From Bacteroidia bacterium (GTDB lineage: Bacteria; Bacteroidota; Bacteroidia; AKYH767-A; OLB10): 37,883 bases of DNA. Positions 36,189 to 37,883 of this stretch are shown piece after piece. The translations under genes were made by a program, and so were the position numbers. The stretch lies in the NCBI GenBank assembly GCA_017995075.1, contig JAGOJO010000019.1, positions 1 to 37,883 on the forward strand. The letters run 5' to 3'. How positions within the stretch are numbered: position 1 is the stretch's first letter; every line of letters begins with the position of its first letter. Below the pieces are notes generated by a model that was not told the DNA's origin, ran no database searches, and was given only the letters and a program-made list of their open reading frames with translations.

Positions 36189-37505
36189 ATGAACAACCGT
36201 TACGCCACACTACTCTTTATTCTGCTTACTACTTTCACCGCCAACGCCCAATGGTCGACCAATAATTTACCTTCCGGGGGACGCTCCTTTCTCGCTGCAG
36301 CCACCTCCGGAAACTACGCCCTGTTCGCAGGAGGAATTGGAATGATCAGTATACCCCCGGGAGTATCCGATAAGTTCCAGCTAAGCACCAACACCTGGAG
36401 CGGAGGCACCCTCAGCACCGGACGTGTAAAGCTGGCAGGAGCAGGAAACGGGAAGTATGCAGTATTCGGCGGTGGAGCCAACGACTGGATTTTCGCCGTG
36501 TACGACGCAGTTGATATCTACAACAGCACCACCAACACCTGGAACACCAGCCAAACCCTCTCGGCAGCCCGTTATAGCTTAACCGGAGCCGCAGCAGGAA
36601 GCAAGATTTTAATGGCAGGCGGCATGGACAACAACGGCACCTATTTCACCACCGTAGATCTCTTCGACACCCTCAACGGCGCATGGACAACTGCCGCACT
36701 TTCCACCGGAAGAGCGAATCTCGCATCAGCTTCAACAACGACGCATGCATTTTTTGCCGGAGGAGAAAACGGAAATGGCTACTCGGATGTAGTTGATATC
36801 TACGAAGCAGCCACCGGCACCTGGACCACCGCACAACTATCCATCGCACGAGCCAATTTAGGAGGGACAGCCTGCGGAAATAAAATCTACTTCGCTGGCG
36901 GACTCACCGGAAGTACCGTCAGTAAGCGCGTTGACATTTACGACATCACCACCAATACCTGGAGCATCGACTCCCTCTCCATTGCGCGCCAGAATGTAAT
37001 GGTAGCAGCAGTTGGAAAGTATGTATTGTTTGCCGGCGGCTCAGATGCATTGGGCATGACCGTTTACAACAACGTTGACATCCTCGACACCCTCACCGGA
37101 ACCTGGACCACCGCCACCCTCACCACAGCCCGCACATACGGAGCTGCCACATCTATTGGCAACAAAGCCATATTTGCAGGCGGAGCAGGAAGTAACGGAT
37201 TTGCGGTAGCCACAGCAGAAACCTACACCGTCACCAACACAGGATTATTTATTCCACAAGAAGCAGAAGGGTTATTGGTTTATCCGAATCCGTCGAATGG
37301 AACTTTCCATCTGAATACATCCACATTGAAAGGAGACATTACCTGCTCTATGTTTAACCTTCAAGGTCAATTAGTCTATTCAAAACAATTTACTGCAGGC
37401 GACCAAAATATAACTATTGGGCTATCCGAAATTAACGCCGGGGTTTATATTCTGAAAATTGAGGACAGTCAAAAAATCAGAGTAGAGAAGATTCAGGTTG
37501 ATTAA
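36189..37505 (+). CDS. Secreted Kelch-repeat protein with T9SS sorting domain
   Basis: A 438-residue protein with a signal peptide (MNNRYATLLFILLTTFTANAQ). It has seven Kelch-like units, each with a hydrophobic strand ending in a double Gly (FAGG, FGGG, MAGG, FAGG x4), then VDIYD and TWTTAxLSxAR; seven such blades would close a beta-propeller. The C-terminal 80 residues form a sorting domain (LLVYPNPSNGTFHL, MFNLQGQLVYSKQF, INAGVYILKIED). The repeats are similar at DNA level too (recurrent ACCACCAACACCTGGA-like words), suggesting expansion by duplication. A binding role at the cell surface is plausible, but no ligand can be named. Confidence 0.9.
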   Translation: MNNRYATLLFILLTTFTANAQWSTNNLPSGGRSFLAAATSGNYALFAGGIGMISIPPGVSDKFQLSTNTWSGGTLSTGRVKLAGAGNGKYAVFGGGANDWIFAVYDAVDIYNSTTNTWNTSQTLSAARYSLTGAAAGSKILMAGGMDNNGTYFTTVDLFDTLNGAWTTAALSTGRANLASASTTTHAFFAGGENGNGYSDVVDIYEAATGTWTTAQLSIARANLGGTACGNKIYFAGGLTGSTVSKRVDIYDITTNTWSIDSLSIARQNVMVAAVGKYVLFAGGSDALGMTVYNNVDILDTLTGTWTTATLTTARTYGAATSIGNKAIFAGGAGSNGFAVATAETYTVTNTGLFIPQEAEGLLVYPNPSNGTFHLNTSTLKGDITCSMFNLQGQLVYSKQFTAGDQNITIGLSEINAGVYILKIEDSQKIRVEKIQVD

Positions 37506-37597
37506 GAATTTTTACACGAATTAATTTTAGGGGACTAATTAAAGTAACGGTAATTGCAACTTGTTGCGTAATCTTGACTACGGGCGACATGCTGATG

Positions 37598-37709
37598 GCT
37601 ACAGGCTACAGGCTGCAGGCTGCAGGCTACAGGCTGCATGCTACAGGCTACAGGCTGCATGCTACAGGCTACAAGCTACAGGCTGATTACTACAGACTAA
37701 TTGCTACAG
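37598..37709. repeat. Tandem repeat of a 7-bp unit, 16 copies
   Basis: The unit GCTRCAG, with variants GCTGCAT, GCTACAA, GCTGATT, ACTACAG and ACTAATT, runs without slippage for 16 copies. The first twelve are closest to consensus and the last four decay. A 21-bp higher-order block (two GCTACAG then GCTGCAT) appears twice at 37640-37660 and in part before. No reading frame here is credible. Confidence 0.9.
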
Positions 37710-37747
37710 GCGATTAGTTGATGGTTGATATATGTGCAACTAAACTT

Positions 37748-37793
37748 CGCTACCAAAAAATCCCCGGAAAACTCCGAGGATTTTTTGGTAGCG
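37748..37793. terminator. 46-bp inverted repeat, terminator-like, sharing the tRNA 3' end
   Basis: CGCTACCAAAAAATCC at 37748-37763 is repeated in inverted form at 37778-37793, continuing through CGGA/TCCG with one mismatch on each side. A and T runs make it look like a bidirectional terminator. The outermost CGCTACCA is the 3' end of the tRNA-like remnant, present here in both orientations. Confidence 0.7.
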
Positions 37794-37883
37794 GGGATAG
37801 TCCCGATAGCTATCGGGATCGAACCTATGTCCGCCGCGGCGGATATGAGCCCAACGAGCTCACCTGTTCTTTAAGACGATGAT
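37786..37883 (-). pseudogene. tRNA-Met-like remnant interrupted by two palindromes
   Basis: Read on the minus strand, the sequence holds GAGCTCGTTGGGCTCATA (D-stem end and CAT anticodon arm), CATAGGTTCGA (T-arm) and CTATCCCCGCTACCA (acceptor end with CCA), in tRNA order. Where the 3' strand of the anticodon stem should be is TCCGCCGCGGCGGA (37830-37843), and within the T-loop is TCCCGATAGCTATCGGGA (37801-37818), both perfect palindromes. The 5' acceptor strand expected to pair with CCCCGCT is not recognisable. It cannot fold as a tRNA. The anticodon would have been CAT. Confidence 0.65.

Follow-up and report, generated by a model that had tools for sequence, protein, structure and literature searches.

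Rickettsia palindromic elements (RPE) are palindromic repeats of about 100-150 bp that lie within genes, including RNA genes, and HIP1 is an 8-bp cyanobacterial palindrome. SegB of phages T4 and T6 is a free-standing GIY-YIG homing endonuclease enriched beside phage tRNAs (PMC13096335). It cuts inside tRNA genes at the motif RAWTSGAAC and drives tandem amplification of the segment holding the tRNA and the nuclease through recombination (PMC13096335). The SegB study surveyed phage genomes, and its text does not contain the word palindrome (PMC13096335). The reverse complement of the SegB motif, GTTCSAWTY, is the tRNA T-loop consensus.

The window, meaning the whole stretch of DNA that was analysed (37,883 nucleotides), is one whole contig (C94) of G000, an 80%-complete assembly of 3.24 Mb from a Bacteroidia bacterium. 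The minus strand holds, at 37786-37860, three exact pieces of initiator tRNA-Met in collinear order, separated by perfect palindromes of 18 nt and 14 nt. The features are, in minus-strand order:

37861..37883, minus strand: contig end upstream of the copy, with a possible end of a GIY-YIG frame (IIVLKNR*, its stop overlapping the D-arm), suggested by analogy with L144 (..WDMISKLK* and then a tRNA copy) and too short for proof
37844..37860, minus strand: piece 1 of the tRNA-fMet copy (AGCTCGTTGGGCTCATA), D-arm 3' side, anticodon 5' stem and CAT anticodon loop, 17/17 identical to the intact fMet of the sister genome G002
37830..37843, strandless: 14-nt perfect palindrome TCCGCCGCGGCGGA in place of ACCCAAAGGT (3' anticodon stem and variable loop), the same palindrome standing at the same place in L106
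37819..37829, minus strand: piece 2 of the copy (CATAGGTTCGA), T-stem 5' side and start of the T-loop, 11/11 identical to G002 fMet
37801..37818, strandless: 18-nt perfect palindrome TCCCGATAGCTATCGGGA in the T-loop, in place of GTC; its 16-nt core has 11 genomic copies, 3 of them in T-loops of tRNA copies
37786..37800, minus strand: piece 3 of the copy (CTATCCCCGCTACCA), T-stem 3' side, acceptor 3' side and CCA, 13/13 identical to G002 fMet before the CCA
37755..37785, minus strand: terminator-like hairpin and T-run directly after the tRNA copy, read from the sequence and found likewise after copies in related loci

Read along the minus strand, the order is AGCTCGTTGGGCTCATA, TCCGCCGCGGCGGA, CATAGGTTCGA, TCCCGATAGCTATCGGGA, CTATCCCCGCTACCA and the terminator-like hairpin, and the intact initiator tRNA of G002, used as the reference, reads ..AGCTCGTTGGGCTCATA ACCCAAAGGT CATAGGTTCGA GTC CTATCCCCGCTAC.. 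at the corresponding place. The exact, in-order matches to this tRNA are AGCTCGTTGGGCTCATA (17), CATAGGTTCGA (11) and CTATCCCCGCTAC (13), giving 41 collinear bases, compared with a maximum of 19 in 1254 other pieces of the window and a maximum of 30 in 2000 shuffles. A sequence-only reading of this DNA had claimed tRNA pieces in the correct order, and this chance check bore it out. It had called the tRNA Met-like with a CAT anticodon; Met is right, and the copy is now placed as initiator-type, on the minus strand, with the 5' third of the tRNA absent and the contig stopping 23 nt upstream. The two perfect palindromes of 14 and 18 bases that it described were found exactly at 37830-37843 and 37801-37818. 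Of the positions it gave them, the T-loop was retained, where the 18-mer takes the place of three bases, and the anticodon stem was amended to the 3' anticodon stem plus the variable loop, where the 14-mer takes the place of ten bases. Among the perfect palindromes of the window, the 18-mer ranks first in length and the 14-mer joint second; chance would give 0.14 palindromes of 18 nt per window and 0.006 cases of a 14-mer lying no more than 45 nt from one.

In the complete-cloverleaf test of the window copy, two tRNA searches detected nothing: ARAGORN called 0 genes and Rfam gave no tRNA match even at E 10, as expected for a copy so broken. An intact tRNA with palindromic introns was rejected, as the 14-mer replaces ten tRNA bases and both programs see no tRNA. 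The RNA fold of the copy is not special (z -1.3). The terminator hairpin is lengthened by an inverted copy of the tRNA 3' end (CGCTACCAAAAAATCC / GGATTTTTTGGTAGCG, window 37748-37795), so the terminator too carries tRNA-derived palindromic arms. A terminator-like hairpin also follows the tRNA copies in related loci, and in several of these it repeats the hairpin after the intact tRNA. Directly downstream of the scarred copy, heptad-like simple repeats (ctacaggctgcaggctacagg...) occupy window 37588-37720; in other loci (e.g. L303, L305) the palindrome is flanked by other short periodic repeats. Window 36189-37505 was read by eye as a Kelch-repeat-like protein with a tail resembling a type IX secretion sorting domain (PNPSNGTF...KIQVD).

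The window feature is a partial duplicate of the initiator tRNA, not a ruined host gene. The initiator tRNA is intact and single-copy in 19/24 genomes of the family, and in G002 the intact fMet is followed by its terminator and then by a decayed copy, TCGTTGGGCACATA[TCCGCAAAGGCGGA]CATAGGTTCGATC, with a hairpin at the same position. Destruction of the host gene by mobile palindromes was rejected for the lineage on these two grounds. No intact fMet was found in the 80%-complete G000 assembly, and the contig-end sequence of the window matched no other contig of G000. Since neither of its two other CAT-anticodon tRNAs resembles an initiator, the intact initiator tRNA of G000 probably lies just beyond the contig end, a placement drawn from an incomplete assembly. 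The nuclease gene belonging to the window copy would also lie beyond this end; no nuclease gene is visible in the window, the contig ending first.

The sequence-only reading had suggested one class of small mobile or templated-insertion element, with both palindromes to be sought in the genome and in other genes. The 16-nt core of the 18-mer, CCCGATAGCTATCGGG, occurs in 11 copies in G000 and in 25/61 relatives (1 to 54 copies), and its reversed control was absent from G000 and the 61 relatives; the 14-mer is unique in G000. A recurring class is thus present, and it interrupts tRNA sequences, namely the T-loops of three tRNA copies of G000 and, with both palindromes as an identical pair, tRNA-Met copies in Cognataquiflexum; movement of the palindromes by themselves stays conjectural. 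Public genomes have CCCGATAGCTATCGGG directly behind GGTTC in at least 117 stretches, and every title listed for these is from Bacteroidota. Many of these sites are T-loops of partial or full tRNAs, and the T-stems pair 5/5 in 39/166, compared with 11 when partners were shuffled. The combination of GGTTC and the 18-mer gave 27 matches in 395 genomes, which is weak alone and about the chance level, as estimated roughly by hand on the assumption that palindromes are as common as in the 61 relatives. The argument therefore rests on the spacing (GT, AT or T), the T-stem pairing and the linked tRNAs.

The contexts of the core differ among genomes. When read by eye, nearly all of its 17 occurrences in G012 and most of the 6 in G016 fall within tRNA copies, at D, anticodon, variable and T positions; most copies in G002 lie in AT-rich repeats. 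The 18-mer is also widespread outside tRNA sequence, as in most G002 contexts, so it is not a dedicated protection device. At the tRNA position of the 14-mer, TCCGC..GCGGA hairpins were found in 9/247 genomes of the phylum. A long tRNA array (L148 7087-7500; L170 about 2529) holds tRNA-Gln, tRNA-Arg(ccg) and tRNA-Arg(acg) genes at full length whose T-loops carry the 18-mer, and has no GIY-YIG gene in its vicinity. In tRNA-Val-like copies of L091, L214, L075 and L130, the whole anticodon arm is swapped for another hairpin (TCCCGAC..GTCGGGA), so that the arm is kept and its sequence is not. IMG/VR contained a T-loop palindrome in one contig only, and a phage origin was rejected on this result. 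A literature search found no report with the 16-mer, nor any that brings together GIY-YIG and partial tRNA.

Cognataquiflexum rubidum, an isolate from a different family, matches the window most closely; in it, a 5' tRNA-Met copy with TCCGCCGCGGCGGA, an intact tRNA, a GIY-YIG gene and then two 3' copies follow each other; these 3' copies carry exactly the two palindromes of the window at its two places. This order of intact tRNA, terminator, intact-looking GIY-YIG nuclease gene of ~90 aa and one or more partial, palindrome-scarred tRNA copies, often in tandem, is found in Cognataquiflexum and many other Bacteroidota. For tRNA-Met, the series of intact tRNA, terminator, GIY-YIG gene and a CATA[TCCGC..GCGGA]C..GGTTC copy occurs in several families, including on megabase-scale contigs. 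Most of the TCCGC..GCGGA Met loci that were read consist of tRNA-Met, GIY-YIG ORF and copy, the ORFs numbering up to six and standing mostly 364 bp apart, and 5' copies upstream of the intact tRNA are present in some loci. Many GIY-YIG-linked Met copies keep an intact T-loop, so T-loop loss is not universal. The recurrence of this layout across Bacteroidota points to a selfish-element family that exploits tRNA genes and spoils its own copies of them.

For several sets of loci the palindrome itself was the search key, so the counts from those sets are biased. In loci fetched without regard to palindromes (via GIY-YIG genes or tRNAs), 16/20 tRNA copies carried inserts, and 15/18 unique inserts were significant hairpins by folding. 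T-arm inserts were present in 28/38 nuclease-linked insert loci, many of them fetched by the T-loop pattern. Among the examples, a Val array on another contig of the window genome (G000:C60, L219) has seven partial copies of tRNA-Val whose T-loops all hold TCGCGARGCYTCGCGA, and the GIY-YIG gene is kept only at the last; Asp copies carry TCTCGTCANNNNTGACGAGA; in Arg copies the anticodon loop contains a hairpin of 27 nt; two hairpins occupy the D-loop of Ser 5' copies that precede the intact gene; and the G012 initiator copy has hairpins in the D-loop, variable loop and T-loop. Some tRNA copies carry two or three palindromes. In L054, L062, L118 and L162, GIY-YIG frames read on into the tRNA copy and terminate within the palindrome (..GSSR*), which thereby also provides the stop codon.

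In the relatives, the small ORFs ending just before T-loop sites are GIY-YIG proteins (Pfam PF01541, E 1e-10 to 1e-20), and the catalytic residues Y, Y, G, R, H and E are conserved in 46-48 of 48 nucleases. All small GIY-YIG genes found in G000 (7 matches) have a tRNA at a distance of about 1.4 kb or less: Arg, Asn (two), Ser (two), Val and Leu (a broken one). Across the set, 48/80 small GIY-YIG ORFs were within 1.2 kb of an intact tRNA. Around 64 paired T-loop sites, GIY-YIG ORFs within 1.5 kb were same-strand in 20 cases and opposite-strand in 0, and a same-strand intact tRNA lay within 1.5 kb in 47.

A tree of the 48 nucleases, built on only 90 columns and with weak inner support, requires 20 changes of the linked tRNA compared with 34 when shuffled (0/200). 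The Leu-linked nucleases form one group that spans several families and orders. On the tree with six more Met-linked proteins, rows that were fetched by palindrome, the presence of a palindrome at tRNA position 36-41 requires 3 changes compared with 11 (0/1000); the three Met-linked nucleases without this palindrome fall elsewhere. An Asp-linked nuclease with T-loop-interrupted copies groups with Ser and Arg nucleases whose copies are likewise interrupted, and not with the two Asp nucleases whose copies break near position 38. The split between T-arm and other positions clustered marginally (7 vs 9.1 changes, 29/500). The nuclease phylogeny tracks the linked tRNA and, for the one site tested, the palindrome position.

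The explanation that we favor, with confidence somewhat above even, is that the window feature is the 3' tRNA copy of a chromosomal SegB-like element composed of a tRNA and a GIY-YIG gene, whose copies persist since the palindromes destroy the cut site. The comparison with SegB was proposed because the reverse complement of its motif is the T-loop consensus, the place most often interrupted here. The putative nuclease, acting like phage SegB, would cut the DNA of tRNA genes, each lineage at a site of its own. Repair by recombination between segments homologous to the tRNA would then spread the unit and amplify it in tandem, and copies whose site has been replaced by a palindrome would escape recutting and be those that persist, a presumed immunity by site erasure. 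The data show the architecture, its recurrence, the linkage of nuclease genes to tRNAs and the correlation of nuclease lineage with palindrome site; the activity of the nuclease, its cut sites and the immunity are inferred from these and from SegB. The palindromes may be drawn from the pool of short dispersed palindromes common in Bacteroidota genomes, entering either by capture at the break or by insertion followed by selection. Several points stand against this explanation: the intact tRNA in carriers keeps an unaltered site, so that self-protection of that copy does not follow from it; the two or three palindromes in some copies are more than one site would need; and the lack of a visible nuclease gene in the window, the intact T-loops of many Met copies, the spread of the 18-mer outside tRNA sequence, the marginal T-arm clustering and the fetching of locus sets by palindrome count against it as well.

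A rather unlikely alternative, though one to be taken seriously, is neutral accumulation, in which small mobile palindromes (REP-like hairpins of Bacteroidota) insert preferentially into folding DNA such as tRNA arms and survive only in redundant copies, since hits in functional tRNAs are lethal, and GIY-YIG genes merely make the copies. The dispersal of the palindrome in simple repeats and intergenic DNA agrees with this, as do inserts in the D, anticodon, variable and T arms, sometimes three per copy, and full-length tRNA copies with a T-loop palindrome in arrays without a nearby GIY-YIG gene. However, each nuclease lineage keeps its insert position across families and, in the case of the Met lineage, across more than one class; inserts are present in most tRNA copies next to GIY-YIG genes; and the concentration of the 18-mer of G012 in tRNA copies is unlike random insertion. 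The claim of the sequence-only reading that tRNA is a favored target holds in that tRNA sequence is a favored place for the palindromes; the invaded sequence is nevertheless a duplicate in a tRNA/GIY-YIG cassette, with the functional copy intact elsewhere.

We consider it improbable that the unit is a natural cleave-and-rescue element, in which the nuclease destroys the resident essential tRNA gene and the element supplies its own intact tRNA, so that the scarred pieces are the remains of the resident gene and the host is left dependent. The shape expected for it is seen in L106 and L233, where scarred 5' copies precede the intact gene and further scarred copies follow it. Quite improbable is an action of the hairpins at the RNA or recombination level, blocking either the processing or charging of spare copies as tRNA, or their recombination with the essential intact gene and its conversion by them. 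The palindromes do break copies into identity pieces of roughly 9-20 nt in several cases, and one copy (L233) has its D-loop, variable loop and T-loop all interrupted with the anticodon arm kept; yet identity over >=38 nt or an identical terminator survives in many copies (L238, L219), and truncation by itself already leaves a copy without tRNA function.

Very improbable is a remnant of tyrosine-recombinase integration, namely an attR-like 3' duplicate of the tRNA that belonged to an ICE or prophage and was overlaid with repeats. Such elements typically leave 3' tRNA duplicates downstream of an intact tRNA, but the related units that were read closely have ~350-400 bp between tRNA and copy with only the GIY-YIG ORF and no integrase, 5' copies upstream also occur, and IMG/VR gave a single T-loop match. 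As to tRNA genes as favored integration sites, a point raised in the sequence-only reading, no integrase-type integration is indicated here. An assembly artefact, which the sequence-only reading had allowed for, is scarcely credible: the feature touches the last bases of a metagenome contig, but the identical architecture inside long contigs of isolates and ~100%-complete genomes refutes this for the architecture.

On the favored reading, the observation of the sequence-only reading stands and leads further, to a kind of homing endonuclease element that is associated with tRNAs and recognizable by its palindrome-scarred tRNA copies. If the SegB-like explanation is true, Bacteroidota chromosomes carry widespread, largely overlooked minimal selfish elements, whose small nucleases target essential tRNA genes. 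The palindromes in tRNA copies would then be a readable record of the cut place of each nuclease lineage, so that cut sites could be predicted from sequence and tested directly. It would also account for the recurrent short palindromes and for broken tRNA copies missed by tRNA finders, and would tie phage SegB biology to bacterial genome evolution.

Compared with known systems, the units resemble SegB in that genes with a GIY-YIG catalytic domain lie beside tRNA genes, here on the chromosome. Unlike phage SegB, they are found in bacterial chromosomes, encode about 80-110 aa (the catalytic domain only) and are accompanied by partial tRNA copies with palindromes. As in RPE, palindromic repeats lie within RNA gene sequence; those described here are mostly 14-40 bp, perfect or near-perfect, and sit in nonfunctional tRNA copies linked to GIY-YIG genes in a different phylum, RPE being set apart by description. 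Short palindromes dispersed in many copies per genome are shared with REP and HIP1-type palindromes, whereas a class of different palindromes occupies defined tRNA positions here (REP was compared by description). Partial 3' tRNA duplicates downstream of an intact tRNA are shared with tRNA-targeting integrative elements (ICEs, prophages, tycheposons); unlike these, the units that were read have no integrase, are <0.5 kb, and carry hairpin-interrupted duplicates and 5' copies as well.
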